Positions 2,953-29,042 of a stretch of 36,112 bases of DNA are shown in pieces. The stretch covers positions 1 to 36,112 of the forward strand of contig CAIJNQ010000151.1 of the NCBI GenBank assembly GCA_903822015.1, given 5' to 3'. Position numbers and translations under genes: made by a program. Positions within the stretch are counted from its first letter, which is position 1, and each line of letters opens with the position of its first letter. This DNA is from an uncultured Verrucomicrobia subdivision 3 bacterium. GTDB lineage: Bacteria > Verrucomicrobiota > Verrucomicrobiia > Limisphaerales > UBA11358. The notes beneath the pieces were generated by a model that searched no databases, was not told the DNA's origin, and was given only the letters and a program-made list of their open reading frames with translations.

Positions 2953-2959
2953 CGGAAAC

Positions 2960-4195: not shown

Positions 4196-5875
4196 ATGAT
4201 ATTGAAACGGTTTTTTGAAAAGCAGCTCGTGATGATTGTTACGCCATTTGCGAGGCTGGCGCTGCTGGTTTTTCTGGGGGCCGTTTATTTTTCCCTCATA
4301 CCAAAAATCGCAGCCTCGACCAAAGAGGTCGCCCTGGTCGATTTAAAATTGGGTGATTATCTTCAGCAAGTGATGCAACACAACGAGGCGGTGCAGGCGC
4401 AGTTGCTGGAGGTGGAAGTCAGCCATCGCAAAAACACGGCGGAGATGGGCATATTTGAGCCCAAATTCAAGTCATCCGTCACTTATGAGGCGAACAAGCG
4501 CACCAACAACGTTTCGCAGGCGGCGGCGCAGAATAACCAGGGGATTTTTAAGGAAAATAATACGCTCTACGACAGCGGCCTTGAATCGGAGCTGCCCACC
4601 GGCGGCAAAGTGCATCTGGGCTATACCATGAGCAATTTGGGGAACAACGTGAATCCGAATTCCAGTCTGTTCACTTCCCCAACCAATAATAATTACTGGA
4701 ATCGGCAGTATCAGACGTTTGTCGGGGCGACATTCACCCAACCGCTATTGAAGGACGCCGGGCTGACGCCGACTTTGGCCAATCTCCGGCTGACCGCGCT
4801 CGACTCGGACATCGCGTTCCAGGAATATCGCCGGCAGTTGATGCTGACGATTTTCAAGGCGGAGGACGCCTATTGGAACCTGTATTTTTCCCAGGAACAG
4901 GTTCGTTTTTTCGACCAGTCCATTTCGGTGGCGCAGAGTGTCCTGGATGACAGCCGGGAAAAATTGAAGATCGGCCAGGGCTCGGAACTGGATATGATGG
5001 AGGCGCAGTCGGCGCTGGCGTTGCGCAGCACAAAACGGAACAACGCGCTGCAGGAATATTACGATGCCGTGGAAAACCTGCAGGTGCTCATGGGGGTTTC
5101 GCCCTCGCCGTCTCCGGCGGGTCCGGTCGGGTCAACTTTTCATGTGACCGACACGCCGCGCGAAACGAGCGCCGCGATTTCTTATTCCGAAAACTTTGAG
5201 CAGGCGTTTTCCTTGAACCCGGATTATCTAATCCAGCAGACCAAAATCAAAGAGCAACTCCTGCGGATGGGCGTGGCCAAAAATCAAATCCTCCCGGATT
5301 TAAGCCTGCTGGGCGCCTACGGTTTCAACGGCCTGGGCACCACGCCGGTGAATTCCTGGGACTCCGCCCAGTCGGGCGCCTATCCTTCTTGGTCCATCGG
5401 CATGGAATTGACCGTGCCGTTGGATGGCAATATCAAGGAACGCAATTTGTATCAGGCGTCGAAACTCACCCTGTCGGAGGCTTACCTCCGGTTCAAGGGT
5501 GTGCAGACAGAAATTTCCTACGGGTTGAACACGGCCATACAGAAAGCGGGGGCCTGGGAACAGAGCATTCAAAGCTACCAAACGGTGGTGCATTACAATG
5601 AGGAATTGCTCAAGACCCAGCTCGAACGCCTCAAGGCCGGGCGCGTGGATGGCCACAAAGTCATGGAAGTCGAGGCGGATTTGCTGGATGCCCGCCAGGA
5701 ACTGGCCAACGCGTTGACGCAATATCAGCGGGCCTTGAACCAAGTCGAGCTTGTGGCGGGTTCAATCCTGAAAAATCGCAACCTTGACCTCACCCGCGCG
5801 GAGCTGAAACAACGGACGACATTATTGCTGGATGGCGCCTCTGCGCCGGCCGCGCCAGTCTCCACCTCAAATTAA
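4196..5875 (+). CDS. TolC family outer membrane efflux protein
   Basis: 559 aa, N-terminal signal/anchor, two OEP-like halves with long heptad helices (FKAEDAYWNLYFSQEQVRFFDQSISVAQSVLDDSREKLKIGQGSELDMMEAQSAL; LKTQLERLKAGRVDGHKVMEVEADLLDARQELANALTQYQRALNQVEL). Confidence 0.92.
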   Translation: MILKRFFEKQLVMIVTPFARLALLVFLGAVYFSLIPKIAASTKEVALVDLKLGDYLQQVMQHNEAVQAQLLEVEVSHRKNTAEMGIFEPKFKSSVTYEANKRTNNVSQAAAQNNQGIFKENNTLYDSGLESELPTGGKVHLGYTMSNLGNNVNPNSSLFTSPTNNNYWNRQYQTFVGATFTQPLLKDAGLTPTLANLRLTALDSDIAFQEYRRQLMLTIFKAEDAYWNLYFSQEQVRFFDQSISVAQSVLDDSREKLKIGQGSELDMMEAQSALALRSTKRNNALQEYYDAVENLQVLMGVSPSPSPAGPVGSTFHVTDTPRETSAAISYSENFEQAFSLNPDYLIQQTKIKEQLLRMGVAKNQILPDLSLLGAYGFNGLGTTPVNSWDSAQSGAYPSWSIGMELTVPLDGNIKERNLYQASKLTLSEAYLRFKGVQTEISYGLNTAIQKAGAWEQSIQSYQTVVHYNEELLKTQLERLKAGRVDGHKVMEVEADLLDARQELANALTQYQRALNQVELVAGSILKNRNLDLTRAELKQRTTLLLDGASAPAAPVSTSN

Positions 5876-5881
5876 AATTTT

Positions 5882-6607
5882 ATGTTCAAGTATTTCTGGG
5901 TTGGCCTATTGGGAATCTCCGTCGGTTTGGTTCCCGTCGCTCGCGCAGCGGAACCGTTGTCGGTCAGCGGCATCACCGAGCCGTATCTGGACGTGACACT
6001 CGGTCTGGCCGACGCCGGCATCATCAGCACGCAGTTTTTCAAGGAAGGTGACACCGTCAAAAAAGGCGACGCCATCCTGGAGCTGGACAAACGGCTCGAG
6101 ACGTTCGAGGTCGCGCGCCGCAAAGCCGTAATGGTGCAAAACAAACGGGTTTATGATTCGACGCGGACCCTGATGGAAAGCACCAAGTCGGTGAGCCAGG
6201 AGGAAATGACCAAAGCCGAGGCCGAATACAATGTTTCCGCCGCCGAATATGACATCGCCGTCCAGCAGCTGGCCAACCGCCAGCTCGTCGCGCCGTTTAC
6301 CGGCCGCATCACGGAGGTTTTGCTCAAGCCCGGCGCCGCCGTTGCGCCGTATCAGCCGCTCGTCCGGCTCGTGGACACCTCGCGCTGTTATTTCACCGGC
6401 CACATCGAGGGCAAGGCCGCGGCGAATCTGCAACCCGACCAGCCGGTGCAAATCCAGGTGGATGGCGGCGTGACGATTCCAGGGAAAATCTGTTTCATCT
6501 CGCCGACCGTGGACGCTGCGAGCGGCCTCGCGAAAGTGAAGGCCATTTTTGACAACGCCGACGGCCGGATCCGCCCCGGTCTTTCCGCACAGCTCACCAC
6601 GGAATAA
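5882..6607 (+). CDS. HlyD/RND-type periplasmic adaptor subunit
   Basis: Signal peptide, lipoyl-like half motif FKEGDTVKKGDAILELDKR, coiled coil, QLVAPFTGRITEVLLKPGAAVAPYQPLVRLVDTS. 6 bp after tolC. Confidence 0.92.
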   Translation: MFKYFWVGLLGISVGLVPVARAAEPLSVSGITEPYLDVTLGLADAGIISTQFFKEGDTVKKGDAILELDKRLETFEVARRKAVMVQNKRVYDSTRTLMESTKSVSQEEMTKAEAEYNVSAAEYDIAVQQLANRQLVAPFTGRITEVLLKPGAAVAPYQPLVRLVDTSRCYFTGHIEGKAAANLQPDQPVQIQVDGGVTIPGKICFISPTVDAASGLAKVKAIFDNADGRIRPGLSAQLTTE

Positions 6608-6612
6608 TTTTT

Positions 6613-8466
6613 ATGGAAACCAACGGCGGCAGGGACGCTGAATTTTCGCGCACGCTTGACGAGCTTGCCGCGCTGCGCCAGTTCGCCGGCGAACCCAAAA
6701 ATTTCTGGCCGGCCTTTCTGGCCGCCGCCTCGAAACTGATTTCGGCGGACATCGCCGTGCTGCTGCTCGGCAGTCCCGGTAAAAATCCGCGCTGGGCGAA
6801 GATCGGCGAGTGGGATTCCGGCTCCGGGCTGTCGCGAGTCCGGACACAATTCACCTCACAACTCGAAGCCATCGCCGAACGCGGCTTGGGCGATGGCAGC
6901 TTCTTGGAACAGACCGACCCGACCAGCGGCAGTTTTACGGTCGCCGTTCGGCTCAAATTGCAACGCGCCGAAGACGAAGTCATTTTGGCCGCGCAATTGA
7001 AGGATTTCACCTCATCCGCTGCCAGCGAGGCGATCGCCCGCCTGCGGCTGGTGGCCGACGTGCCGCTGGCATTCCAACAGAATCTCGCCGCACAGCAGGC
7101 GCGCAACGACGTGGAAAAATTCGCCGCCGTCCTGGATTTAAACGTGCCGGTCAACGATGCGACGCAATTTATTTCCGCCGCGCTCGCGTTCGGCAACGGC
7201 ATCGCCACCCGTTTCCGCTGCGAGCGCGCGAGCCTCGGCTGGCTCGAAGGCGGCTACATCCGGCTGCGCGCGATAAGCCGCACCGAACAGTTTGACCGCC
7301 AGATGGCCGCCGCGCAGGCGCTTGAAGTTGCCATGGAAGAATGTGTGGACCAGGATGAGGAAATCCTTTTTCCGTCACCGGCAGGCGTGACGACCATAGC
7401 GCGCGACCATGAAACATTCGCCGCCGACCAGAAATCCGGGAACATCTGTTCCCTCCCGCTGCGGCTCGACGGCAAGGTGGTTGGCGTGCTGACCTGCGAA
7501 CGGCAGGACATGGCGTTCACCGCCGTTGAACTCCAGCAAATCCGCCTCGGCTGCGACCAGATCGTGCGGCGCTTGAGCGAATTGAAACTTTATGACCGCT
7601 GGTTCGGCGCGCGCTGGGCGGCACACACCCGCGATTATTTTTCCCGCTGGCTCGGCCCGGAACACACCTGGGGCAAGGTCACGGCGATTTTTCTCACGCT
7701 GGTCATGTTCGCGCCGTTCCTGGTGCGCGTCAATTATCGCGTCGAGGGCAATTTCATTCTGCGCAGCGACGAGGCGGAATTTCTGACCGCTCCGTTCGAC
7801 GGCTACATTGAGCAGGTGTTCGTCCGCGCCGGCGATCATGTCGCGAAAGCCCAGCCGCTGGTGAGCCTGAACCGCAGCGAACTGCTGCTCGACCAGTCGG
7901 CCGCGCTCGCCGACGTGGTGCGCTACCAGCACGAGGCCGAAAAAGCGCGCGCCGCGAACAATATTGCGGAAATGCGCATTGACGACGCGCAGGCGCAACA
8001 GGCGCAGGCCCGGCTGGACCTCGTGCGCTACCGCCTCGATAACGCGGTCATCAAATCCGCGTTCGACGGCGTGGTGGTCGAGGGCGATTTGCGCGAGCGC
8101 ATCGCTTCGCCGGTCAAGCAGGGCGACGCGCTGTTCAAGGTGGCGCGCATTGACACGCTTTACGCCGAGGCGGAGATCGGCGAGCGCGACGTGCAGGAAA
8201 TCCTGGGCAAGTCCAAGGGTGAAATTGCCTTCGTCACGCAGCCGAAAACCAAATATCCGGTCACATTGCAAATCGTCCAGCCGGCGGCGGTCACCAAGAA
8301 AGATGGCAACGTGTTTCTGGTGCGCCTGCAGCCGGACGGCGGTGCGGCGCAATGGTGGCGTCCGGGCCTGACCGGCCTGTGCAAAATTTCGACAGAGAAG
8401 CGGACGCTGTTCTGGATTTTCACGCATCGCACGGTGGATTTCCTGCGGATGAAGCTTTGGTTTTAA
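6613..8466 (+). CDS. GAF-domain / HlyD adaptor fusion protein
   Basis: N-terminal cytoplasmic region with GAF-like segment (ALEVAMEECVDQDEEILFP...KSGNICSLPLRLDGKVVGVLTCERQDMAFTAVELQQIRLGCDQIVRRL), TM (VTAIFLTLVMFAPFLVRV), then adaptor (AEFLTAPFDGYIEQVFVRAGDHVAKAQPLVSLNRSELLLDQ). Confidence 0.88.
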   Translation: METNGGRDAEFSRTLDELAALRQFAGEPKNFWPAFLAAASKLISADIAVLLLGSPGKNPRWAKIGEWDSGSGLSRVRTQFTSQLEAIAERGLGDGSFLEQTDPTSGSFTVAVRLKLQRAEDEVILAAQLKDFTSSAASEAIARLRLVADVPLAFQQNLAAQQARNDVEKFAAVLDLNVPVNDATQFISAALAFGNGIATRFRCERASLGWLEGGYIRLRAISRTEQFDRQMAAAQALEVAMEECVDQDEEILFPSPAGVTTIARDHETFAADQKSGNICSLPLRLDGKVVGVLTCERQDMAFTAVELQQIRLGCDQIVRRLSELKLYDRWFGARWAAHTRDYFSRWLGPEHTWGKVTAIFLTLVMFAPFLVRVNYRVEGNFILRSDEAEFLTAPFDGYIEQVFVRAGDHVAKAQPLVSLNRSELLLDQSAALADVVRYQHEAEKARAANNIAEMRIDDAQAQQAQARLDLVRYRLDNAVIKSAFDGVVVEGDLRERIASPVKQGDALFKVARIDTLYAEAEIGERDVQEILGKSKGEIAFVTQPKTKYPVTLQIVQPAAVTKKDGNVFLVRLQPDGGAAQWWRPGLTGLCKISTEKRTLFWIFTHRTVDFLRMKLWF

Positions 8467-8468
8467 TC

Positions 8469-8499
8469 AGTCAGCAGTCTGTGGTCAGTAGTCAGTAGC
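8469..8499 (+). repeat. Left imperfect inverted repeat, phased heptamers GTCAGCA-GTCTGTG-GTCAGTA-GTCAGTA
   Basis: Direct reading of bases 8470-8497 as four heptads; pairs with 8932-8962 in inverted orientation. Confidence 0.7.
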
Positions 8500-8517
8500 A
8501 TTGCGAGATGCGAGTCT

Positions 8518-8534
8518 GGCTACGGACGACTGAC
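8518..8534 (+). repeat. 17-bp perfect direct repeat, copy 1 (GGCTACGGACGACTGAC); copy 2 at 8931-8947
   Basis: Exact match on both sides of the four-helix-bundle ORF; copy 1 can also pair with 8482-8499 as a stem-loop. Confidence 0.85.
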
Positions 8535-8565
8535 TACGGACGACGAACGAAAAACTGATTTAATA

Positions 8566-8946
8566 ATGAGCCGGACAAATTTTGAAAAGCTGCGGATTTA
8601 CCGCCTGGCGGAAGACCTGGCGGATGAAATCTGGGCGATGGTTTTGCAATGGGATCGTTTCGCGCGTGCTACGGTTGGAAAACAAATTGTACGTGCAGCC
8701 GACAGCATCGGCGCGAATATTGCCGAAGGAACCGGACGCGGCAGTTATCAGGACAACAAGCGCTTTGCAAAAATAGCACGCGGATCGTTAAATGAAACCC
8801 AGCATTTTCTCCGCCGAGCCTTCCAAAGAAAACTTTTAAGCGCCACGGATGTAAAAAAACTGAAGCCACTGGTTGATAATCTGGCGCCGCAATTGAACGC
8901 CTACATCAAATCCATCGGGCGCGACCCCACGGCTACGGACGACTGA
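8566..8946 (+). CDS. Four helix bundle protein (23S rRNA intervening-sequence protein / S23 family)
   Basis: FEKLRIYRLAEDLADEIWAMVLQWDRFARATVGKQIVRAADSIGANIAEGTGRGSYQDNKRFAKIARGSLNETQHFLRRAF is the characteristic family pattern. Confidence 0.92.
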   Translation: MSRTNFEKLRIYRLAEDLADEIWAMVLQWDRFARATVGKQIVRAADSIGANIAEGTGRGSYQDNKRFAKIARGSLNETQHFLRRAFQRKLLSATDVKKLKPLVDNLAPQLNAYIKSIGRDPTATDD

Positions 8947-8962
8947 CCATGGGCCACTGACT
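8932..8962 (-). repeat. Right imperfect inverted repeat (reverse complement heptads GTCAGTG-GCCCATG-GTCAGTC-GTCCGTA)
   Basis: Ungapped alignment to 8469-8499; overlaps the last codons and stop of the four-helix-bundle gene. Confidence 0.7.
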
Positions 8963-8966
8963 AATC

Positions 8967-11117
8967 ATGGACCAGACCTTCAGCGAATCCTGGTATCGGG
9001 TGGCGAATCAAAAGATCTGCCTGCGCCCGACCATCAACGCGCGCCGCCAGAATTTCCGCGGCGAGCGCTGGATTATCCTCGAAAATCCGTTCAGCAACCA
9101 ATATTTCCGGCTGCGGCCGGCGGCCTACGAATTTGTCTCGCGCCTGCGGCCCGACCGCACGGTCGAGGAAGTCTGGCAGCAGTGCCTGAACCGTTTTCCC
9201 GACACCGCGCCGAGCCAGGAAGCCGTCATCCAACTTTTATCCCAGCTCTATTTTTCGAACCTGCTGCAATACGATCTGGCCGCCGACAGCGCGCAATTGT
9301 TCGAACGCTACAAAAAACGGAAGCAGCGCGAAATCGGTTTCCGGTTTCTGAACATCATGTTCATGCGGTTTCCGCTGCTGGATCCGGATCGTTTTCTCGT
9401 GCGCACGCTGCCGGTGGTCAAAAAGTTGATCAGCCCGTCTGGCGCGCTGTTGTGGCTGCTGGTCGTCGGCTTCGGGTTGAAAATCGCCGTGGACAACTTG
9501 AGCGACCTGCGCGCGCAGGGCGAAGGAGTCCTGGCGCCGGACAATCTGTTCCTGCTTTATCTCAGCACGGTTGGCATCAAGGCGCTGCACGAATTCGGCC
9601 ACGCGTATTTTTGCCGGCGGTTTGGCGGTGAAGTCCACGTCATGGGCGTGATGCTGATGGTGTTCACGCCGATGCCGTATGTGGACGCGACGTCGAGCTG
9701 GAGTTTCCGCGAGCGCTGGAAGCGCGTGCTCGTCGGCGCGGCGGGCATGATCGTGGAATTGTTTTTTGCGGCCATCGCGGCGTTCGTCTGGTCGAAAACC
9801 GCGCCGGGCGTCGTCCACAGCCTGGCTTACAACATCATGTTCGTCGCGTCGGTCTCGACGGTGATCTTCAACCTCAATCCGCTGCTGCGCTTCGACGGCT
9901 ATTATATTTTGTCCGACCTGCTGGAGATTCCGAATCTCAACCAGCGTGCCTCGACGCAATTGCGCCACCTTTGCGAACGGCATCTGTTCGGTGTGAAAAA
10001 TTCCGAAACGCAGGCCGCCACGCACCGCGAAGCGACGTGGCTCATCGTTTTCGGAATCATGAGCGGCATTTATCGCGTCATCGTATTCAGCGGCGTTTTG
10101 CTTTTTGTGGCCGACCGGTTTTTGATTGTCGGCATCGTGATGGCCGCCGTGTGTTTGGTCTCGTGGGCTGTCATGCCGATCGTGCGCTTCGTGAAATATC
10201 TCGCGGCGAATCCGCGCCTCGACCGCGTTCGTCCGCGCGCCATCGCGGTGACGGCGGGCATCGCGGCGGTTTTGATCGTGCTGCTCTCGGTCGTGCCGTT
10301 TCCATATTCTTTTCGCGCACCGGGGATTGTCATCGCCTCGCAACGCACGCAGGTCGCCACCGAGACGGCGGGCGATGTGGCCGGGTTGCTGGTGCCCTCC
10401 GGCAGTCCGGTGAAGCGCGGCCAACCGATATTGCGCCTGGAAAATGCCGAGCTGGCCCTGGAGCTGGCCAACACCCGCGCCCACCTTGACGAAATCAACG
10501 CGCGGCTGCGGCAGGCGATGAACAGCGAATCGGCGGACATCGTGGCGCTGACCAGTTTGCGCGATGCCGTCAGCGACGTGTTAAAAAAGCAGTCGGCAGA
10601 TTCGGAAAATCTGACGGTTCGCGCCCGGCATGACGGCGTGTGGGTGGCGCCGGACATCGAAGATTACGTCGGGCGCTGGCTCCCGCGCGGCGCGGAATTG
10701 GGCTTGCTGGCGAACCCGGCGGCGTTTGAATTTGCCGCGACGGTGAGGGAAGAAGATGCGAATGCGTTGTTTGCCAGGAAAATATCCGGAGCCAGCGTGC
10801 GGCTTTACGGTGAGGCCGGTGAAAAATTGTCCATTGCCCGGTGGCGCGTGATTCCCGGCGGCCAGCAGATCCTGCCGTCGGCGGCGCTAGGTTGGAGTGG
10901 AGGCGGCGAGGTGCCGGTAGCCCCAGAAGGCAATGCGCAAGGCAACAAATCCGTTGAGCCGTTTTTTGAGGTGCTGGGCGACCTGGATGCGCGCAACGGC
11001 GTCGCACTGCTCGACGGCCGTTCCGGAAAAATCAGTTTCAAGCTTGAGCCCCAGCCGCTGTTGCCGCGCTGGATCCGCAGCCTGTGGCAACTGCTCCAGA
11101 AACGCTATCAAATCTGA
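8967..11117 (+). CDS. M50-family (site-2 protease-like) multi-pass membrane peptidase with PqqD-like N-terminus and C-terminal HlyD-like adaptor region
   Basis: HEFGHAYFCRRFGGEVHVMGVMLMVF (HExxH at 9588-9602) and NLNPLLRFDGYYILSDLLEIPNL (N-P-x-x-FDG at 9870-9899); several TMs; C-terminal VATETAGDVAGLLVPSGSPVKRGQPILRLENAELALELANTRAHLDEINARL. Confidence 0.9.
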   Translation: MDQTFSESWYRVANQKICLRPTINARRQNFRGERWIILENPFSNQYFRLRPAAYEFVSRLRPDRTVEEVWQQCLNRFPDTAPSQEAVIQLLSQLYFSNLLQYDLAADSAQLFERYKKRKQREIGFRFLNIMFMRFPLLDPDRFLVRTLPVVKKLISPSGALLWLLVVGFGLKIAVDNLSDLRAQGEGVLAPDNLFLLYLSTVGIKALHEFGHAYFCRRFGGEVHVMGVMLMVFTPMPYVDATSSWSFRERWKRVLVGAAGMIVELFFAAIAAFVWSKTAPGVVHSLAYNIMFVASVSTVIFNLNPLLRFDGYYILSDLLEIPNLNQRASTQLRHLCERHLFGVKNSETQAATHREATWLIVFGIMSGIYRVIVFSGVLLFVADRFLIVGIVMAAVCLVSWAVMPIVRFVKYLAANPRLDRVRPRAIAVTAGIAAVLIVLLSVVPFPYSFRAPGIVIASQRTQVATETAGDVAGLLVPSGSPVKRGQPILRLENAELALELANTRAHLDEINARLRQAMNSESADIVALTSLRDAVSDVLKKQSADSENLTVRARHDGVWVAPDIEDYVGRWLPRGAELGLLANPAAFEFAATVREEDANALFARKISGASVRLYGEAGEKLSIARWRVIPGGQQILPSAALGWSGGGEVPVAPEGNAQGNKSVEPFFEVLGDLDARNGVALLDGRSGKISFKLEPQPLLPRWIRSLWQLLQKRYQI

Positions 11118-11123
11118 CCGGCG

Positions 11124-13115: not shown

Positions 13116-13207
13116 CCGGCATTAGTCAGGATATTGCATAATTATGTTATTTCTTATTGACGGGGAATGGCAGTCTGTGAGACAAACAGCGCGCACCAAG
13201 TAAACGC

Positions 13208-19200: not shown

Positions 19201-22200
19201 CAAACCGTTTCAAAGCATCGCGGTCAGCAGCGCCAGCCTCAATATTGACAACACCCTGCTCTTCAGCGCCACCGTCACCGGCTCGTCCGGCACCACGCCG
19301 GGCGTGACGACGCAAACGCTCACCGGCGTGACGCTGACGTTGCAGGATCCGGCCACCAAAAACATTTACCTGACGCTGACCGCCGCCTCGGCCAGTTATT
19401 CAACCGTCGCCGGCGGCATCATCTACGATAATACGACCTGGGGTGCCAACGGCGGCTATGACGTGGTGCTGAACAACCTGAGCCTCTCGCTCGGCGGCTA
19501 TGTGGTTTTCAACGGCACGGTGGATGTCCAGTATAACAACAAGACATCCAGCAGCGCGGCAAAGGTGTCCTTCAATTTCACCAGCGCGGCCATCACCTTC
19601 AATCAAAATGCCGGCTCGAATCCGCTGGTCTCCGTGGCGGGAAGTTTCGCCTTTGCCTACAGCAGCACGGCCGGATTGAGTTTGATCGGCACGCCGACGA
19701 TTTCCGGCGTCAGCTTCTTCGGCCAGACCATTACCCCGGCCACCACGGCCGCCGCGGCCACCACGGCGAGCAGTCCGATCACCACCGCCGCCGCGACATC
19801 CACTTCGGGAACGCTCGGGCCGGTCACCCTCGGCTCGCCCGGCATCGGCTTCAGCAACTTCAATCTGGATACTTCCGGCAATTTGTCAGTTAAAGTCACC
19901 ATCTCCGACAAGGGCGCCGGCATCAACAGCACCTTCGGCAGCGTGGCGGTCAAGGCGTCGGTTGATTTGGAAGGTTCATTCACGGTCGGGATGACGCTTA
20001 ATCTGCAGAATCCGATTTCTGCGCCGACGAATATACAGGCCGGCAACTTTGCGTTGACCCTAAAGAACCTGAATATCACCGTCACCATCACCGGCGCCAG
20101 CAACATCACGCTCACGCTCACCGCCGCCAGTGTGAGCATCAATCCCGAAGCCGGACCGACGGACAATGCGGTGACTTTTGCCGGCACGCTGAGCGGCAGC
20201 CTGGCCATCGGGAGCCTGCAATTCACCTGTTCCGCCGGCAATTTTGCCATCACCGGCAACGGCTCGTTCGTCGCGCTGCCGGGCTTCAGCGTCTCGCTCA
20301 GCTTCGGCGCCAACACCTCGGAAACGTCATTCTCCTGGCCCAGCTGGCTGCCGCTGCAGAACCTCTCCATGGTGCTGACCTGGACCAATTTCAACTCGGA
20401 CCCGACGAGCTGCCTGATCACGCTGTCCGCCACGGTTTCGGTCACGTTGCCCAGCACCAGTCTGCAGATCACCGGCAACGTCACCAACCTCGTGATCGAT
20501 GTGAGCACATTGGTCAACGGCAATTTCCCGATCATCGGCCTCGGCTCGGTGGCGTTGAATGTCAGCGGAAATTTATTTGGCGGAACCGTCAGCGGTTCGT
20601 TGATCATCGGCGTGGCCCAATTTGATGACAACGGGAAATTGGTCAGTCAATTTTCCGCCAGTTCAGCCCAGGTCGGAACCATCACGGCCACGACCGCAAG
20701 CACCACCGTGACCGGGGTGGGCACGCTGTTTACCAGCCTGCAAGCGGGTCAATCCATCTACGATGCTTCCGGCAACCTCATCGGCACCGTGGCGAGCATT
20801 CAAAGCGACACGTCGCTGACGTTGAACGCGGTGGCGGCGGTCGCGGTGACAACCGGGGCGTTTGAAAACCAACCGGTGGCAACCACCACCACGACTTCAA
20901 CGGCCGCCGGAATTCATTCTGTGTTCTACGCCGGCATTGCTGCCAGCTGGACCTCGCCCAACGGCATGGGATTCGCCATCCAAATCGGACTGACGGAATA
21001 TGGTCCGCTGACCGCTTATTTCTCCGTGAATATCCCCATTCCCATCGGCGAAACGGGATTGATCCTAGCCAGTTTCAGTGGCGGAGTCGCATTCGGCGTT
21101 CCCCTGCCGACCTATAGCATACAAACCGACCCCAACACCGGGTTGCCCTTGGCGAGTAGCGCGTTGCAGCTCCAGACGAACGCCTTCACGCCGCTGGGGC
21201 AGCAGACCGTGACCGAATGGCAGTCGCAACTCGCACAGCAGGCGGCAACGCTATATGCGCCTTCGTTTAAAAATGGCGGCACCATCACCAATGGCTGGTC
21301 CAATTTGGGCAGCGCCCCGATTCTGATTCAAGCGGGCGCGACCCTGACGGCGGGCGATGTGGCGACCATTTCGGCCGATGAGGCGGTTTTCATGGTTACC
21401 GCCACGATCGATTTTGACACCACGGGAAAATTCCTGATCACTGGCACGGCGACGTTCGGCAGCAGCCTGACCGTGAACGTAAGCATCTATGCGAACCTGA
21501 CGCCCTTGTTCCAAAACGATGTGTCGACCACCAATCCGGTCTATGTGCTGTTCCTGCTGGATATGCCGCCGCCGCCGCCGCTGGCCAGCCTGATCAGCCT
21601 GCCCTTGGTGCAAATTTACGGCACCATCACGTTTGCTCCGATCAACAATGGCTTGGAACTTGATTTTGCCGGCGAAGCGGACCTGAACTTGCCGGGCGGT
21701 CTTTATGCGAAACTGACGGGGACCATTTCGTTGATTTTCACTTCGACCAGCTTCCAGATGACCCTCGCCAACGCCGCGCTGAACGTCAGCTATCTGGGCA
21801 CCATCGGCACAGCGGCGGGCAACCTGAATATTCAAAAAGATGGCAACGGCGTGGATATCTGGGGCGCACTGGTGGTGACTTTGAATGTGTCCTCCGCTTC
21901 GCTCCTGCCGGCCTCGACCGGCATCAGCGTCAGCGGCGAAATTGAAATGGAAATCAACACCACCGCAGTGCAGCAATCGGTCACGCTCTCCGGTTTGCAA
22001 CCTTCGGTCACCGAACCGGACGGAACCGTGGTGACGCCGAGCACGACGGTCAATCTGGATCCAAATTCGTTCAGCTTGCTGGTCACCGGCGGGGCCACGG
22101 TGACCCTCCTCGGCCAGCAAATCTTCAACATTTCTGGAACACTGGTGATTGACATCAACTCGACGTCGCTAACCATTTTTGTGCAGGCGATTCTGGACGT

Positions 22201-25200
22201 CGGCCCGGAGGATTTTAATTACGTTTCCTTCAACGCCAACGGCCTGCTCTATGTGGACCAGAACGGGTTCGCGGCGATGGTGACTTTAAGCATCAATAAG
22301 AGTTTGAATCTGGGGAACACCCTCACCTATTCGATGGGCGGCGATTTTCTGCTGGTGATGAACACCACCGGCGAAACCAATCCCATTCAGTTCATCATTC
22401 CCACGGTGGCGGCTTCACCCATTCCGGTGGTGACGGGACCGGACTTCACCAGTTCAAATTTGCTGGCCATCACGAACTATGAAAATGACGCCATCAATCC
22501 AGGCAAACGGACGCTGGTCATACCGGCGGGCCCGCCGCCATCCGGCACGACCGATTATCTGAACGGCTGGATCAACAGCACCGCGTCGATCACGCCGGGC
22601 TATTACTTCCTGATTGTCGGCCGCGGCAGTCTGACGCTGGGCTTGTCCTCCACGTCATTGGTGATCACCGGCAACATCAATATTGCCGCCAGTTACAGCG
22701 CCGGGAATATCATCTTTTCCTTCGAGCTGAACGCGAGCCTGAATCTACAGGTTGCCGGAACCAATCTGTTTTCGTTCAACGTCGTCGGCGGGATCGAAAT
22801 CAGCAACGCCGGACTGGTGGCCGCGCTCAATCTCAGCTTGAACGGCGGCCTGCCCAGCGGTCTGGGCTTCTCGCTGTCGGGTTCGCTGACCTTCACCCTA
22901 GAAATCAATACGACCGGAACTGCGGCCCAGGTGCCCGGCACAAACATCACCGTCCAGCCCGGCGCCATGGTGGCGATCAACGGCTCGCTCGCGATTCCGG
23001 GCTTCACGCTCTCCGGCGAGTTCGACCTCACCGTCACCTCGACTTATCTGGCGGTGAACGTCACCGCCTCAGCCTCCGTGCTGGGAATTACCCTGAACGT
23101 GGATGGTGCCGCGCAAATTTTTTATGGCGCCAACAAAGGTCTGGCGCTCGATCTCATGCTTTCCGTGGGGAGCGGCGCGCCAGGCAGCACCTGCACCTTC
23201 TATCCCATCAGCGCCCTCGGCAACAGCTTTGTCATCCAGGGCACGCTGGAGTTGCAATTGAACACCTGTTCCTCCGCGGTCAAATTGAGCAACGGAGTGA
23301 CCGTCCAGTCCGGCTTCCTGATCTCGCTGACGAACGTGAAAGTTTACCTCTTCCAGGTTTTCGAACTGGACGGTTCCGCGAGCATCCGGGTTTCCTCGGC
23401 CGGATTTGACCTCTACCTGAATGTCACGTTGAATTTCTTCAACCTCGTAAAATTGAATGTCACGGGGGATGTCAATTCCAACGGCACGTTTTATTTTTCG
23501 GCGAGCGCCAGCTTTTATTATTACTGGTCCATCGGCGCGGTCAGCGGTGATGTCTATGCCTATCTGACCGTTTCGTTCTGGTATTACTCCTCCAGCAATA
23601 ACGGATTTTCCGCCTCGGCGGGCTGCGGGATTGATATTTACCACATTGGCTCTTTAAGCCTGAACGCAACAGTCACGATTTCTTCCAGCGAGTTCTATCT
23701 CAACCTTAGCGTGGATTTGGTCCTCTTCTCCGCCACCATCACGATTGACCTTGGCCCGACGTCGCCGCCGCCGGCTCCGCCACCGCCCGTGGTGGCCTGG
23801 CAGAATCCGACCACCCACGTGGTGCAACTGAATTTCGGCACGGATGTCAGCAGTCGTGGAACCGATTATCCGGCACAGGCGGTTGAATCGTACGATGTCA
23901 CCGAGTCACTCGGAATCGTCACCGTGTACACGACACTACCCATACCCGGCGGCAGCGGTTCGCAAACCTATACCAATACATTTACGGGTGTGACCGGCAT
24001 TCTGGTTGACAACACGCGGGATTACGGCGGGGTGACGAAAAGCGACAGCGTCACGATTGAGGCCGGCGTCTTGGTGCCGCTCATCGTGAATCTGGGCAGC
24101 AATAATACCACGATCATCAACCGTGGCAGCGGTGCCACCACCGTTTACAATTACGGCAGCGGCACCAACACGATCACGACCGGCAGCGGCCAGGCCACCA
24201 TTTACGATTATGGCACCGGCAGCAACACTATCAATGTGGGCGGCGGCGGCGTCACTTACTACGGCGGTGAAGTGGGCGCTTCAGTAAGTTCCGCGACCTA
24301 CTCCAGCAAGGGCATCACCTATTTCATTAATTCCAGCAATCAGGTCACGGTCATCGAATCCGGGTACAAGAATTACACGCTATCCAGCACGGGACTGATC
24401 TACGGCAGCTATTCGCTGAATGGCGTCATCAACCAGGCGACGCTGAACGGGGTCAGTGCCGGCGGAACGACCTTCACTTTCAACAATTGGAACGGAACGG
24501 CGACTGTGAACGGCCAGGGCTACAATAACACCGTTGTGGCCAATCCGGGCGGCGGTGCGGCCCTGACATTCGCTTTGACCAACACATCCCTGCAAGTCAA
24601 AACCAACGGCACCGTGACGGAACAGATCACATTATCGGGAATTCAGAAGGCGAATCTGACGGGCGGCACCGGTGCGAATACGTTTAACGTCTCCAGTTGG
24701 AGCGGCACGGCGAACCTGAACGGCGCGGATGGAAACGCCACCTACAACCTGACGTTGACCGGCGTGGGCGCCGGGACGATCAACGTGCTAGACGCGACGG
24801 TCAATTCCAATGACGTGCTGAACCTGTTCGCCAACGCCTCGACCATCATCACCAGCAATCAACTCACGGTCGGCGGGCAGGTCGTCAATTACAGCGCGGT
24901 GGCGACGCTGAACGTCACGGGGACGGCGGCGGGCCTGGCTTACAACGTCCGGAGCACCAACAACACGACGACCACGACCATCAACGCCATGGGCAGCGGC
25001 AACGTATTCAACCTCGGCAGCACGGCCAGCAACGCCAAGGTTCAAGCCGGCAACCTGGAAGGGATCCTCGGCAGTTTGAATCTCAACGGCGGCGGCCAGG
25101 ATATGCTGAACGTGGATGATAGCGGCAATGCCGGCGGTCTCACCGGCGTGATGACGCCGACCACGCTGGATTACACCGGCCTCGGCACGATCACTTACTC

Positions 25201-28200
25201 GGGCATCGCCGCGCTCACCGTCGGCCTCGGCCAGGGCGCGGATACTTTCACCATCGCCGACACCATCACAAGTGCTTCCACCACGCCGGTGATCGTCATC
25301 AACAGCAATGGCGGCAACGACACCATAAACGTGTTGGACGACCACGCCGTGACCGTGATTAACGGCGGCAATGGCAGCGATACGTTCAATATGACCGACG
25401 ATCACGCCGCCACCACGGTCAACGCCGGCACTCACGGAAGCGACACGTTCATCGTGACCGACGATCATGCGCTGACCACGATCAACGGCGGCATCGGCAG
25501 CGACTCGTTCAACCTGCTGGACGACCACGGCGCCACAATTTTCAACGGCGGCACGACCAATAACATCTTCAATATTTTCAACGCGCATGCCGTCACCACG
25601 CTCAATGGCGGGCCGGGCACCAATGCGTTCTATATTTTCGGCAATTCCGCGCAGTTGAACATTAACGGCGCCGGCGTGGACGTGTATAACCTGTTCGCCT
25701 CGGTGCTGGCCGGACAAACGACCTATCAAATCAATGGCCCGGTGACGATCACCGGAGTCGCCGGCGGCAGCGACCAGCTGAACATCTACGGCACGGTCCT
25801 GAACGACACAATCGTCATCAACGGCTACCATTTGACCAGCCTCGGTCTGAACGTGACCTTCGGCAACATCGCCAACTGGGCGTTGTTTGGCCTGGCCGGG
25901 AACGACACCTTCTATGCGCAAAAAGTGGTAGTACCCACCACGATGGTGGGCGATGGCACTCTGCCGGTGTTTGCGTTGCCGGCTGGCTTGAGCGTGCCCG
26001 ACTTCACCGGCGGCAACACCTCGAATACGTTCAACGACACTTATTATATCGGCCGCTTCGGCCCGAACCTGCCCGGCTGGATCGCCGGAATCAACGCGCC
26101 GCTCACCATCGTGGGCGGACCGGGAACCGATACGGCTTACGTGGATGACGCCGCCGATATCGCCAACCGCACCTTCACTTTGACGCCGGGCGTCCTGACC
26201 AGCAATGCGATGGGACCGAACGGCCAGATTGTTTACGATGCGTCGCTGGAATATCTCAACGTGTTCTGCGGCTCGGGCAACGACACGCTCTATGTCAACA
26301 ACCTGTTGAATCCGACCGTGACCACGATTGACGGCGGCAAGGGTATAAACACGGCGTCGCTGAACTTCAGCGGGGATTTTGCGGCCGCCGATTTGACATT
26401 GGTGCGTTTCCGGAACGGCGGCCTCACCGTGGCCGGTAATTACACCGGATTGCTCAACGACGCCGGCGCGCTGACGAACGTGATCATCGGCGGATCAATG
26501 ACCGGCACCGGCGTGCTGAATGTCGGTTCGATCAACACCATGACCGTGGGCGGGGATCTGGCCGGCCTGGTGAACGTGACCGGCTTACTCAACACGCTGG
26601 CCATCACCGGCGGCTCCCCGGGGCAGATTATCGCCGGTTCGATCAATTACATCACCGTGCAATCCGGCTACGGCAACAAGGTTCTGCAAGTGACCGAAGG
26701 CGGCATCCTGCGGAAAATTCTCGCCACGCCGGCGGCGGGGGGCACGTTGCCCGGCAACATCCGGTTCGCCTTCATCTATGATTCCGCCGCGCCCGGCAAT
26801 CCGCAACTGGCCATACAAATCACCAACAGCGGAACCGTGGTGACGCATTCATTCAATCTGGCGCTGACGACGCCCAGCGCTGCTGCACAGTTCAACTTGG
26901 CGCTGGTTTACGCCACCGCCGCCACCGGCCTGGGCAACCTGTCGGTGACGGGCGATCTATTGTTCAAGGCGGATGCGGCCGAACTGAGTTTCCTGCATAT
27001 CGCCACGGCTCCGCATTTCGGTGTCATCCTGCCGTATGACAACATTACCGGATTGGAGTTCAGCGGCATCCTGCCGATCGGCATGGTGGATGTGGCCGGC
27101 ATCGAAGCCATCGCCTTCGGCCTCCTCGAGACGCAGGCGGGCCAGGTCGTCAACATCCTGGGCGACCTCGGCTCGGCGGGTAATCCGCAGGTGCTGTGGA
27201 ATCTGCTGGGCAGCCAGGCGGCCTTGCTGCTGGCAACGGATGCCATCACCGTCTCGTTCAGCACGGGTCACAGCGTCCAGTTGTTCGCCCAATGTAATTC
27301 CAACCCGACGCTGGAATATGCGATGACCTTCACGGATGAATCGTCGGCGGGCAACACGGTCACCGCGCTGGTGGCCATTCTGCCGGCGACGACGACGGTG
27401 CAAAGCATCAGTTTCCAGGGCGACGGCGGATCGGTGAACAGCCGTTATGGCGTCGGCACCATCACCAGCACCGGTTCGCTCGGGAATGTGACGGACGGCG
27501 GCGCTTTGGGCGGCATCACGGCCGCGAATATTTTTGGCAGCATCCTGGTCAACGGCGGGGCGATCACGGGAACGATTCAGACCACGGGCCTGGACACCAA
27601 TCCCTGGACCGGCGTGCAAACGACCTTTAATGCTGACCTGGGCCAGTTCACTTATAATTCGAACGGGACCATCACCGGCGTGACGAAGATTTACGCCAGC
27701 GGCGGCATCACCGGCACCGGCCGGATCATCAGCCGTGGCAACCTGGTCAGCACCGTGACCTCCGCCGCGGCCTTCAGCGGCCTCATCGCGGCGCAGGGCA
27801 ATATCGGCAAGATCCTCACCAACGCCAGCGGCGTGGCGGTGACCAGCGGAACGGGACAACTCACCCGCTACGGCGGAATCAACGTCACCGGCACCATGGC
27901 TGGCCAGGTCGTCGCGCTCGGCAACATTTTCGGCGACATTACCATCACCGGTTCGATGACCGGCCGGATCGCGGCGCAAGGCCAGGCGGTTTCCGGCTTG
28001 AGCGTCACGCGCCTCGGCATCCTTGGCAATTTCCATGTCACGAATAATTTTGCCGGCACGGCGGCGGTGGTTTCCGGCGGATTGATTGGCGACGCCCTGG
28101 ACGCGACAACCTTCCAAGCCGCCACCGTTAGCGGATCCAGTGCCACGGGTTGGCTCGCGGCGGACGGTGCGATCAATGTCGCCAACCCGTCATCGATCAC

Positions 28201-28387
28201 CGGCGTCGGCCGCTATGCGAATTTGCTGGGCAGCGCCAATGGCTCCGTGCTGAACGCGATTTTTACTGACAGCTCATTGCCGCTGAGTTTTGATAGCGGC
28301 GGAACCCTGCATGGACTGGCCTTGATTCTGGCCGACTTGGCCAAAATCACGGTCGCGGCCGGAAAACTTAGCGGCACCGTTCCGTAA
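13208..28387 (+). CDS. Giant LEPR-XLL-type repeat protein (5059 aa), putative secreted/surface adhesin-like protein
   Basis: Uninterrupted 15.2 kb ORF. N-terminal ELEALEPRVLLSADAF (13247-13291), Thr/Ser-rich linker, tandem Asn/Thr/Gly-rich beta repeats, proline linker, RTX-like repeats, beta-helix-like C-terminus. Start codon is TTG (only plausible start after in-frame stop at 13178). Confidence 0.93.
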   Translation: MSQSPQQRRNSFELEALEPRVLLSADAFLATAVAANVVHKSTEVIHQAAAPDHGTVHDSLAYTPAEAGGIFAGVAVQAIQSHEPSPTSSGIQTKPATDIESGPNPDTAVQAKTVAATVVTTSTTNSANKISPTTTTTSAPSTTTSGSVATQQLTASLTVANAPPANTQTTVVKSVSNTTGSTQATSTTSFASKASPIPASPAVTTTDLWSTITGILTAANIANGTLPTGSTSYANVTIEGFLDFSNVAVTFTQSGGKGTAVTVGISGTATLLFPGGSNLISVTLGAVSGSFTTSVQPTGPSFKFSLSIASVTLNLGQALSVTTTSASNPAVTFNFSPNNSGVNADPDGASTTAVPLFKISTATATSPQFPGLGSATLTNFSLWTNGISFDNFSLTNSSVTIGNFFTATHGVTVPPGSPQNTTPVDVPVSLTATGGSGQQFNLDISNVSASTAQVSFFAPNVQLFPNVSGLNLSFSNVSGSFDVLDSTPVIDTSTGLQKVVIKQEMVNGVLQNVSIPQFTSTIGVGALSLAVGNVNISVGDAFTLHMSSVILTPGAATIATVTNATITSNLISGIPTFALPSSIVITQTGFTLSNLKLATGVTASIGSFLSIQNFSFTVTNFSINSPTSGTGTFTASTTATADSMTLFPSYSAISSTITGLTFNFNIAVQGNALSGALSISATSVSLTVANQLTITAGSVALPVVFSPESTTLLSIGTATVDFTQLNLLGSISGLTIQKITNQNVTNTVLTIADGALTGNFTNLGLGGVLTFQGAPTVTLSNLTYTLGGSLGGSISFGPLGVTLNLGSLSAGTVSASGIFSGSYDLQSGTLTGNLGTAPSPFTISVPGFVSVSGTLALFYQPSSGGTSTFLIGGQGINIFMGYNGGTTPVGVQVTNATFALAVFDTSGTYTFAFNATSSSISLTGLPNLPGSVTPLSITTGTVLVQFDNNGAVNLAVNVDTNPADAVQLNFTGNVTSLMVNNLTLNVAGLITLSGNFGFQTVTDAITGLVDDVVIGAANVNAMLGTPSGPNLTINGASLGLVLILPTSASPKTTFALMLNGGTDALNNIPNFSISSYTLTISGAAFTGLAVDLNTTPFGLGGTAWSLPNPIINIATPDVPALALNFGSTAVPGDLNFSTLGIPVAGIPFVGVFGPLSLNFAGLISLKGEFTFEPFTPVSATVPDLLIGATDLTITAGTGTTNLTIGGISPATGATLMAVIVPGASANLTTYALEATGAISLYGIPDFSLSGTAAVQINTTGVLPATLIPSTVTIPTQDGSVAAASFFSDFSNASNLTSIEGTLAMTVNLPGTTDTFVTLNGAFGFQMFADSVTGLTDFAIGASQTTITFGTASAGLTMVNASLALLIRSGGMSGGNPVTTTYALDANGGTDTLTLPDISQISFGATGFIVKINHLGVDPATLVGIPGGVQTAGGVVPLSFPGYGTRSFEDLEVTGISFNVGGFVTLTGNLAIQMFADPVTSGATDLAIAATGINAAVTAGGVSLTINGASLGLLVVPGSTTNYALVVNGGMDALTGINGLTLSATGLSVFVSSGINPATYLGTLSSIVTAAGNVSLAFPGLPTTGPVADVEGTITLSVANFASLSGKFWFQEFTATVNSAPQAVILAGASNITAVVGATSTGSTNLTIQGASLELLLVPGNGGPSTYALVANGGTDTLNGITGLSLSTSGLLVQINNNVSAALLTAANAQQVATTTGTAKPDFSKLKAGKMIEVEGTVTLNVAGFISLTGSFIFTEQTNVNGIEIDIGASGINAFLGTADGTVGVGVSGAELGMVIYENSTTNATTYALSVSAPLVVTGLPTEVKFTGTAQIAINTTGGALTTTINTPDSSVPVAFTAAQGKLKSFSVTGLTLTITPATGTSISLTGDFSFATTVVSGQTELLIGAANVSTSSIVPDVGASVAITNGSLGMVVFTNSTGGNAGYALAASATVTAALGSSSGSLTLTILRNTTTNAVNQTVAVGGASVPVVLTSLQVATTKPFQSIAVSSASLNIDNTLLFSATVTGSSGTTPGVTTQTLTGVTLTLQDPATKNIYLTLTAASASYSTVAGGIIYDNTTWGANGGYDVVLNNLSLSLGGYVVFNGTVDVQYNNKTSSSAAKVSFNFTSAAITFNQNAGSNPLVSVAGSFAFAYSSTAGLSLIGTPTISGVSFFGQTITPATTAAAATTASSPITTAAATSTSGTLGPVTLGSPGIGFSNFNLDTSGNLSVKVTISDKGAGINSTFGSVAVKASVDLEGSFTVGMTLNLQNPISAPTNIQAGNFALTLKNLNITVTITGASNITLTLTAASVSINPEAGPTDNAVTFAGTLSGSLAIGSLQFTCSAGNFAITGNGSFVALPGFSVSLSFGANTSETSFSWPSWLPLQNLSMVLTWTNFNSDPTSCLITLSATVSVTLPSTSLQITGNVTNLVIDVSTLVNGNFPIIGLGSVALNVSGNLFGGTVSGSLIIGVAQFDDNGKLVSQFSASSAQVGTITATTASTTVTGVGTLFTSLQAGQSIYDASGNLIGTVASIQSDTSLTLNAVAAVAVTTGAFENQPVATTTTTSTAAGIHSVFYAGIAASWTSPNGMGFAIQIGLTEYGPLTAYFSVNIPIPIGETGLILASFSGGVAFGVPLPTYSIQTDPNTGLPLASSALQLQTNAFTPLGQQTVTEWQSQLAQQAATLYAPSFKNGGTITNGWSNLGSAPILIQAGATLTAGDVATISADEAVFMVTATIDFDTTGKFLITGTATFGSSLTVNVSIYANLTPLFQNDVSTTNPVYVLFLLDMPPPPPLASLISLPLVQIYGTITFAPINNGLELDFAGEADLNLPGGLYAKLTGTISLIFTSTSFQMTLANAALNVSYLGTIGTAAGNLNIQKDGNGVDIWGALVVTLNVSSASLLPASTGISVSGEIEMEINTTAVQQSVTLSGLQPSVTEPDGTVVTPSTTVNLDPNSFSLLVTGGATVTLLGQQIFNISGTLVIDINSTSLTIFVQAILDVGPEDFNYVSFNANGLLYVDQNGFAAMVTLSINKSLNLGNTLTYSMGGDFLLVMNTTGETNPIQFIIPTVAASPIPVVTGPDFTSSNLLAITNYENDAINPGKRTLVIPAGPPPSGTTDYLNGWINSTASITPGYYFLIVGRGSLTLGLSSTSLVITGNINIAASYSAGNIIFSFELNASLNLQVAGTNLFSFNVVGGIEISNAGLVAALNLSLNGGLPSGLGFSLSGSLTFTLEINTTGTAAQVPGTNITVQPGAMVAINGSLAIPGFTLSGEFDLTVTSTYLAVNVTASASVLGITLNVDGAAQIFYGANKGLALDLMLSVGSGAPGSTCTFYPISALGNSFVIQGTLELQLNTCSSAVKLSNGVTVQSGFLISLTNVKVYLFQVFELDGSASIRVSSAGFDLYLNVTLNFFNLVKLNVTGDVNSNGTFYFSASASFYYYWSIGAVSGDVYAYLTVSFWYYSSSNNGFSASAGCGIDIYHIGSLSLNATVTISSSEFYLNLSVDLVLFSATITIDLGPTSPPPAPPPPVVAWQNPTTHVVQLNFGTDVSSRGTDYPAQAVESYDVTESLGIVTVYTTLPIPGGSGSQTYTNTFTGVTGILVDNTRDYGGVTKSDSVTIEAGVLVPLIVNLGSNNTTIINRGSGATTVYNYGSGTNTITTGSGQATIYDYGTGSNTINVGGGGVTYYGGEVGASVSSATYSSKGITYFINSSNQVTVIESGYKNYTLSSTGLIYGSYSLNGVINQATLNGVSAGGTTFTFNNWNGTATVNGQGYNNTVVANPGGGAALTFALTNTSLQVKTNGTVTEQITLSGIQKANLTGGTGANTFNVSSWSGTANLNGADGNATYNLTLTGVGAGTINVLDATVNSNDVLNLFANASTIITSNQLTVGGQVVNYSAVATLNVTGTAAGLAYNVRSTNNTTTTTINAMGSGNVFNLGSTASNAKVQAGNLEGILGSLNLNGGGQDMLNVDDSGNAGGLTGVMTPTTLDYTGLGTITYSGIAALTVGLGQGADTFTIADTITSASTTPVIVINSNGGNDTINVLDDHAVTVINGGNGSDTFNMTDDHAATTVNAGTHGSDTFIVTDDHALTTINGGIGSDSFNLLDDHGATIFNGGTTNNIFNIFNAHAVTTLNGGPGTNAFYIFGNSAQLNINGAGVDVYNLFASVLAGQTTYQINGPVTITGVAGGSDQLNIYGTVLNDTIVINGYHLTSLGLNVTFGNIANWALFGLAGNDTFYAQKVVVPTTMVGDGTLPVFALPAGLSVPDFTGGNTSNTFNDTYYIGRFGPNLPGWIAGINAPLTIVGGPGTDTAYVDDAADIANRTFTLTPGVLTSNAMGPNGQIVYDASLEYLNVFCGSGNDTLYVNNLLNPTVTTIDGGKGINTASLNFSGDFAAADLTLVRFRNGGLTVAGNYTGLLNDAGALTNVIIGGSMTGTGVLNVGSINTMTVGGDLAGLVNVTGLLNTLAITGGSPGQIIAGSINYITVQSGYGNKVLQVTEGGILRKILATPAAGGTLPGNIRFAFIYDSAAPGNPQLAIQITNSGTVVTHSFNLALTTPSAAAQFNLALVYATAATGLGNLSVTGDLLFKADAAELSFLHIATAPHFGVILPYDNITGLEFSGILPIGMVDVAGIEAIAFGLLETQAGQVVNILGDLGSAGNPQVLWNLLGSQAALLLATDAITVSFSTGHSVQLFAQCNSNPTLEYAMTFTDESSAGNTVTALVAILPATTTVQSISFQGDGGSVNSRYGVGTITSTGSLGNVTDGGALGGITAANIFGSILVNGGAITGTIQTTGLDTNPWTGVQTTFNADLGQFTYNSNGTITGVTKIYASGGITGTGRIISRGNLVSTVTSAAAFSGLIAAQGNIGKILTNASGVAVTSGTGQLTRYGGINVTGTMAGQVVALGNIFGDITITGSMTGRIAAQGQAVSGLSVTRLGILGNFHVTNNFAGTAAVVSGGLIGDALDATTFQAATVSGSSATGWLAADGAINVANPSSITGVGRYANLLGSANGSVLNAIFTDSSLPLSFDSGGTLHGLALILADLAKITVAAGKLSGTVP
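15881..19080 (+). repeat. Tandem ~140-170 aa beta modules within the giant protein
   Basis: Recurrent motif LTINGASLGLxxVPG..TTYALxxNGGTDxLxGIxGLSLSxxGLxVxIN; equivalent codons at 15881, 16301, 16814, 17273, 17717, 18143, 18560 and 18971. Confidence 0.75.
24089..24235 (+). repeat. Decapeptide ladder in the giant protein
   Basis: NLGSNNTTII-NRGSGATTVY-NYGSGTNTIT-TGSGQATIY-DYGTGSNTIN; units of 30/30/30/27/30 nt. Confidence 0.8.
25277..25660 (+). repeat. Variant RTX-like repeats with DDHA core
   Basis: GGNDTINVLDDHAVTVINGGNGSDTFNMTDDHAATTVNAGTHGSDTFIVTDDHALTTINGGIGSDSFNLLDDHGATIFNGG...NIFNAHAVTTLNGG; equivalent codons at 25337, 25397, 25460, 25520 and 25580. Confidence 0.85.
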
Positions 28388-28391
28388 CCAT

Positions 28392-29042
28392 ATGAATAGC
28401 AAGATTCAATTTCTGATGGGTTGCGGAGTTCTCTCCCTGGCCTCGGCGTCGCTCGGTCAGGATATTTCCAACACGAACAGCGTTGCCGTCGACAAAAAAT
28501 ATTATTTCGGGACCGATCTGGGGCCCGCATTTCTGCAAACCGTCAATATCGTCGATGCCGACCAGATAAAGTTTAACACCGGCATCCGGGGTGACTTGAA
28601 CCTGGGCTACCGGTTGACACCCTGGTTTGCGGCGGAATTAGAGGGCGGTGTTATTTGGAACAGCGCGGATACGATCGGCGGGGTGGCCTTGTCCAGTTAC
28701 GGCGGCAGTTTGGATTTGTATCAGATACCCATGTTAGGCAATGTGGTCTTCACTCTGCCGCTGGATCACGGATTCAACGCGAAAGTCGGCGGCGGTGCCG
28801 GCGCGGTCGCTTCGATTTTGCATTTCAACAGCCCGCTGGGAGACATTCACAACACGGATTACACTTTTGCCTATCAGTTTTTCAGCGGCTTGAGCTACCA
28901 AGTCGCGAAAAATTTCGAAGTGGGCGTCGGCTTCAAGTTGCTCCGGACCAACAACCACTACTGGGAGGAAAACGGCGTCACGTTGACCACCGGCGGCGCC
29001 ATGACCTACTCCGTTACCGGTTCTTTCACCTGGGTTTTTTGA
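28392..29042 (+). CDS. Outer-membrane beta-barrel protein
   Basis: Signal peptide (MNSKIQFLMGCGVLSLASASLGQ), alternating strands, C-terminal aromatic F (SVTGSFTWVF). ATG 4 bp after the giant gene. Confidence 0.82.
   Translation: MNSKIQFLMGCGVLSLASASLGQDISNTNSVAVDKKYYFGTDLGPAFLQTVNIVDADQIKFNTGIRGDLNLGYRLTPWFAAELEGGVIWNSADTIGGVALSSYGGSLDLYQIPMLGNVVFTLPLDHGFNAKVGGGAGAVASILHFNSPLGDIHNTDYTFAYQFFSGLSYQVAKNFEVGVGFKLLRTNNHYWEENGVTLTTGGAMTYSVTGSFTWVF

Follow-up and report, generated by a model that had tools for sequence, protein, structure and literature searches.

How proteins of 5,000-20,000 residues are exported outside ATP-binding cassette (ABC)-type type 1 secretion systems (T1SS) and two-partner secretion is an open question, which we address here with a locus of an uncultured Verrucomicrobia subdivision 3 bacterium (assembly GCA_903822015.1). 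The window, i.e., the whole stretch of DNA analyzed, is contig CAIJNQ010000151.1 (36,112 nt), from a genome that is 73% complete and divided in 310 contigs. The operon, entirely on the + strand, encodes in this order TolC, a HlyD adaptor, a GAF-HlyD adaptor, a PqqD-M50-HlyD protein, a SecA-like ATPase, a giant protein with an N-terminal LEPR-XLL tag, and a small outer-membrane protein (OMP), with a four-helix-bundle gene inserted after GAF-HlyD. The successive intergenic gaps are of 6, 5, (99 and 20 on either side of the insert), 6, 92, and 4 bp, the 92-bp gap being 5' of the giant gene. An earlier note had proposed that these genes form an undescribed export system. Its open reading frames (ORFs), coordinates, gaps, and domain calls all hold on recheck, as does its remark that the operon encodes no ABC transporter, SecY, or TpsB. 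Our genome comparisons strongly suggest that the operon exports giant LEPR-XLL surface proteins, driven by a cut-down SecA.

The presumed cargo is a protein of 5059 aa (13208..28387, + strand, TTG start) with only 7 Cys and 1.6% Lys and Arg, and with no Pfam domain in any of the four quarters scanned. Its tag (FELEALEPRVLLSAD, 13241..13312, +) is matched by the model NF012209 at aa 12-34, with 29 bits for a cut-off of 17 (34 bits in the genome search). A motif profile of 59 copies of the tag gave the consensus F/Y-x-L-E-x-L-E-[P/Q]-R-[L/V/I]-L-L-S-[A/G]-[D/E], at a median position of 31 codons past the upstream stop; proteobacterial variants read LEDR, LEER, or LEQR. The tag has no hydrophobic core (3% of the copies reach a mean hydropathy of 2.0 over a 15-residue stretch) and appears unlike a Sec signal peptide. 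Further along the protein, around aa 4044-4110 (25337..25540, +), a pattern count revealed an RTX-like patch of GGxGSDxF / DDHAxT repeats, which suggests calcium-dependent folding outside the cell.

If the tag marks the cargo of this machine, the two should be found in the same genomes. We searched for NF012209 in whole genomes, including a phylum set of 289, nearly all of which are at least 90% complete. PqqD-M50-HlyD scores were bimodal (>480 vs. 275-456 bits); since the lower-scoring matches, called group II below, mostly came without the SecA-like gene and NF012209, we rejected the treatment of all matches as one system. In the order of the window's own genome (116 genomes), the tag was present in 18 of the 23 M50-positive and 4 of the 93 M50-negative genomes (Fisher p=4e-13). 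The phylum set gave 21/23 with M50 vs. 2/266 without (p=1e-27) and, when sorted by the SecA-like gene, 22/25 vs. 1/264 (p=1e-28). Among the exceptions, a genome with the tag and no strong M50 match (G383) has a SecA-like gene 336 bp from the LEPR match, and in another (G284) the LEPR match is partial and borderline. The same held in the proteobacterial order to which a Comamonadaceae genome belongs (250 genomes), with the tag in 22 of 25 M50-positive and 4 of 225 M50-negative genomes (p=2e-24); three of these four have a group II M50 gene at 12-17 kb from the tag. The association thus holds in 11 families of one phylum and again in a second phylum, and the tag was found in 39 of 50 genomes drawn across phyla for having the module, i.e., the export genes. 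We consider it very probable that the module exports LEPR-XLL proteins.

The giant protein might instead leave the cell through an ordinary ABC-type T1SS or by some other route, with the module doing something else, such as exporting a small peptide. The RTX-like patch of the cargo speaks for this, as do the resemblance of the M50/PqqD part to a daptide protease model and the group II M50 genes (L176, L177) in clusters where no giant gene is visible. As a control, we used the ABC-type T1SS model TIGR03375, which was above its cut-off in 6 of the 289 genomes, two of them LEPR-positive (p=0.07); among the 23 LEPR genomes it was thus present in 2, vs. 22 for the SecA-like gene. The earlier note had named a routine pairing of such giants with a conventional ABC-type T1SS as a reason to abandon its proposal. 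No significant association being found, we rejected this T1SS as the usual LEPR partner. LEPR giants also directly adjoin the module in several phyla, and we regard this alternative as very improbable.

The physical linkage of tag and module is visible in public genomes. Around 17 of 80 related loci, many of them truncated, have tag-bearing ORFs adjoining the module; these ORFs are nearly Cys-free, and many run off the contig after 1,000-2,600 aa. NF012209 detects 9 of 10 tested N-termini of module-adjoining giants. Tag and module lie on one contig within ~15 kb in 10 of the 21 co-positive genomes of the phylum, and two roseobacter plasmids carry a gene annotated as 'LEPR-XLL domain-containing protein' followed by HlyD, M50, and SecA-like genes. 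In Pseudosulfitobacter DSM 107133, the LEPR gene beside the module is ~38.8 kb long. In other genomes, including most of the window's order, the giant genes are scattered; a genome can have up to 7-13 of them, and their open frames reach ~20,000 aa, so that several cargoes are apparently served by one machine. The LEPR-XLL frames of two genomes (G098 and G180), with 20,890 and 20,466 codons, are among the longest bacterial frames.

The 80 loci were fetched among 554 relatives matched by a profile built from 17 order-level M50 proteins. The core of GAF-HlyD, M50-HlyD, and SecA-like genes is conserved across them, in more than 10 phyla, with genome labels including Verrucomicrobia, Lentisphaerae, Kiritimatiellae, Planctomycetota/Phycisphaerae, Fibrobacter/Chitinispirillaceae, Spirochaetales, Elusimicrobia, Nitrospirota, Desulfobacterota-type, Myxococcota, Rokubacteria, and beta/gammaproteobacteria. 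The order of the three genes is kept in nearly all loci of sufficient length, and GAF-HlyD is directly 5' of M50 in nearly all intact ones. Distances are correlated among the three proteins (Mantel r 0.83-0.89, reached by 0/2000 permutations). The TolC duct protein, an outer-membrane efflux protein (OEP; 559 aa, 4196..5875, +, PF02321 2.1e-38), and the free HlyD/RND-type adaptor with its hydrophobic N-terminal segment by hydropathy (241 aa, 5882..6607, +, HlyD_3, RND_mfp TIGR01730 1.8e-40) precede the core in most verrucomicrobial loci, as in the window, and are behind it or elsewhere in others. The GAF-HlyD adaptor (617 aa, 6613..8466, +) has its GAF domain at aa 201-318, a transmembrane segment around aa 356-374, and its HlyD domain at aa 386-597. 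Clustering of the neighbors in search of further recurrent accessory genes also returned a 21-locus family overlapping weak HlyD matches and an 11-locus family of membrane proteins resembling a sensor kinase. The earlier note would have given up its proposal if relatives did not share the neighborhood, but they do. This conservation, together with the joint presence of tag and machine in genomes (Fisher p from 1e-13 to 1e-28), supports the earlier proposal of a non-ABC tripartite duct with a dedicated giant substrate, in which the SecA-like protein would provide the energy.

Which component would recognize the tag? The PqqD-M50-HlyD protein (716 aa, 8967..11117, +; PF02163 6.6e-7, NF041824 6e-56) is polytopic, and its AlphaFold2 model has a mean predicted local distance difference test (pLDDT) of 86.3. 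Since a fold search of the whole model gave only the HlyD part among the matches listed, the N-terminal domain (aa 1-111, 8967..9299, +) was folded alone. Its model (pLDDT 86.7) consists of strands followed by three helices, and Pfam PqqD matches it at aa 41-95, as it does in 26 of 45 homologues. The top PDB folds were lasso-peptide B1 proteins in complex with leader peptides (6jx3/5v1u/5v1v), with probabilities of 0.98-1.00 and TM values of 0.66-0.70 of the target; other enzymes of ribosomally synthesized and post-translationally modified peptides (RiPPs) ranked below. The domain thus models as a RiPP recognition element (RRE), a leader-binding fold, and it seems rather likely that it reads the LEPR-XLL tag. 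As in RiPP leader proteases (daptide NF041824; lasso B1 RREs), a PqqD/RRE fold is combined with an M50 membrane protease and an N-terminal substrate leader, but the window protein has an extra HlyD domain and its substrate has thousands of residues instead of being a peptide. The match to the daptide model reaches 190 bits, below its curated cut-off of 300.

Both M50 motifs are present, HEFGH of the HExxH type at aa 208-212 (9588..9602, +) and NPLLRFDG of the NPxxxxDG type at aa 304-311 (9876..9899, +). Seven of their residues (H208, E209, H212, N304, P305, D310, and G311) are the same in all of 45 sequences from across phyla, down to 34% identity, which argues for an active protease. A different role was proposed in 2015 (PMC4452313), where the weak M50 similarity and the transmembrane helices were taken as a possible pore. 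The protein would then be only a pore or scaffold and no active protease, and the tag would be recognized elsewhere, e.g., by the SecA-like protein. Its polytopic nature fits this, but the invariance of the catalytic residues is unexpected for a mere scaffold, and the RRE-like fold is a further point against it, making a purely structural role improbable. In our reading, M50 appears to be a functional protease with an RRE-like, leader-binding domain, and is unlikely to serve as a membrane pore only.

The motor candidate is the secondary SecA-like ATPase (663 aa, 11124..13115, +). It comprises the first nucleotide-binding domain, the preprotein-binding domain, and the second nucleotide-binding domain, and ends within the first scaffold helix. 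Matches were to SecA_DEAD (1e-96), PP_bind (9e-25), and the SecA P-loop (3e-53), and none to the wing/scaffold; the alignment spans residues 19-604 of B. subtilis-type SecA and stops there. Homologues share the length of ~660 aa, with ~80 aa after the GRxGRQG motif. In 38 sequences, the residues of the Walker A (MATGEGKT, 11502..11525, +; G130, G132, and K133 invariant), DExD, TGR, GRGTD, and GRxGRQG motifs are invariant or nearly so. A separate canonical SecA of ~1000 aa or more is encoded in all seven module genomes checked, and the six module-free genomes checked have a single SecA, the canonical one. None was found in the window's own genome, at 73% completeness, which we read as incompleteness.

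The part of SecA that is missing here (scaffold, wing, and two-helix finger) includes the elements that engage SecY. A SecY-independent motor is therefore the natural reading of the truncated sequence, and we lean towards the SecA-like protein being the motor, without SecY. The protein could also work as in SecA2-type accessory Sec, handing the cargo to ordinary SecYEG while M50 trims the leader in the membrane and HlyD/TolC take it across the outer membrane. Several features fit this: a second SecA paralogue, a genuine relative with an intact preprotein-binding domain, has a presumably dedicated cargo and coexists with canonical SecA in module genomes, and SecA2-only systems do use canonical SecY (PMC4452313). 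The window system differs in being Gram-negative, in a tag devoid of a hydrophobic core, and in the loss of the region that grips SecY, which is shared by the homologues. SecY2/Asp partners were found neither in the window nor among the annotated neighbors, and neither they nor SecY were evident in the neighbor clusters of the 80 loci, not all of which were scanned with a SecY model. We find this alternative unlikely.

The probable explanation is thus an exporter dedicated to giant proteins, T1SS-like and powered by SecA. With its cytoplasmic RRE/PqqD-like domain, the M50 protein would bind the short non-hydrophobic leader of the cargo, which its zinc active site would probably cleave as export proceeds. 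The truncated SecA-like ATPase, with its motor and preprotein-binding domains kept, would feed the cargo into an inner-membrane assembly that M50 forms and that would act as the pore. The periplasmic HlyD domains of M50, GAF-HlyD, and the free HlyD would connect this assembly to TolC, so that the cargo would pass to the outside in one step. The GAF domain is probably a sensor or gate. The system resembles type 1 secretion (HlyB-HlyD-TolC; LapBCE with LapA) in its HlyD adaptors and TolC duct, and in its giant, low-Cys repeat cargo with an RTX-like patch. It differs in having a SecA-like ATPase and an M50 protease in the place of the ABC transporter (HlyB), and in that the conserved tag of the cargo is N-terminal, whereas type 1 substrates have a C-terminal secretion signal.

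Several points weigh against this exporter. The case comes from sequence comparison and models. Shared ancestry inflates the Fisher values, though the phylum survey spans 11 families, and 3 of the 25 SecA-like genomes are without a detected tag. Within the window's order, most genomes carry the LEPR gene apart from the module, and the Foldseek E values for the RRE domain are weak (0.02-0.14), with concordant top matches. Finally, the group II loci L172-L174 and L178 have OEP, HlyD, HlyD-fusion, and PqqD-M50-HlyD genes beside giant proteins and no SecA-like gene. The SecA-like motor is therefore not needed by every such system and may be an added driver, not the only one. The giants of these loci have LE[PD]R-x-[ML]-F-D N-termini (LEPRxxFDG-type), with DUF4347 in the one scanned, which suggests that exporters of leader-tagged giant proteins form a single superfamily, whether or not they include a SecA-like protein. 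Three genomes (G351, G354, and G383) have both a group II-scoring M50 and a SecA-like gene. In two small genomes (G207 and G237), the clusters L176 and L177 have a group II M50-HlyD gene with HlyD neighbors and no SecA-like gene, and are possibly peptide exporters. A match in Azospirillum B510 is group II-like, with no clear cargo directly beside it.

The apparatus itself is not undescribed, as the earlier note had it. A secondary SecA_DEAD / T1SS-related locus was reported by Kamneva, Poudel & Ward (PLoS One 2015, PMC4452313) in Planctomycetes, Verrucomicrobia, Proteobacteria, Nitrospirae, and Chlorobi, with a secondary SecA_DEAD protein without wing, HlyD, GAF-HlyD, M50-HlyD, and sometimes OEP. 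The authors proposed the SecA-like protein as ATPase/motor and M50 as inner-membrane pore, and called the broader role unknown; their text does not mention a cargo, LEPR, giant proteins, or PqqD. The window matches their description, having a SecA_DEAD protein without SecA_SW wing/scaffold adjoined by the HlyD, GAF-HlyD, and M50-HlyD genes, plus OEP. We add the cargo, the LEPR-XLL tag, the PqqD/RRE domain, and a wider range, e.g., Fibrobacter, Elusimicrobia, Lentisphaerae, Spirochaetales, and Rokubacteria. In the searchable literature, which leaves aside subscription papers and preprints, the locus is described only in PMC4452313, and LEPR-XLL is mentioned in two papers, which neither assign it a role nor tie it to the locus. 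The machine was hence already known computationally, whereas the cargo link, the tag, and the probable leader-reading domain appear new. The link gives the orphan locus of 2015 a cargo and the tag a function, and names its likely reader. A SecA working without SecY, if true, would show one of the best-studied motors in a new role. We see about even chances that these systems are a distinct Gram-negative secretion class, spanning more than 10 phyla, where a leader-recognizing membrane protease and a SecY-independent truncated SecA replace the T1SS ABC transporter and export LEPR-XLL proteins of 3,000-20,000 aa in one step, with LEPR-XLL as the export signal and the SecA-less group II (LEPRxxFDG/DUF4347) as a sister branch. 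Direct tests are feasible, since plasmids of cultured roseobacters, Methylosinus, and rhizobia carry copies of the module.

Two genes of the operon are set apart from the machine. The inserted 23S rRNA intervening-sequence gene (8566..8946, +, PF05635 8e-28) is not part of it, because relatives have GAF-HlyD adjoining M50 without the insert. The small beta-barrel OMP (216 aa, 28392..29042, +, PF13505 (OMP_b-brl) 2e-7), counted in the system by the earlier note, is co-directional with the giant gene at a 4-bp gap; no homologue was found in the 80 related loci, and we rejected it as a conserved component. Directly upstream of the operon (2332-4030) are genes for an extracytoplasmic function (ECF) sigma factor and a membrane protein of 372 aa that is possibly its anti-sigma factor; this pair may regulate the operon. 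Elsewhere, two public plasmid loci have a small DUF3467 gene between the giant gene and GAF-HlyD, and in roseobacter plasmid records, what appear to be SecA-like genes of this family are labeled 'prepilin peptidase' or 'DEAD/DEAH box helicase'.

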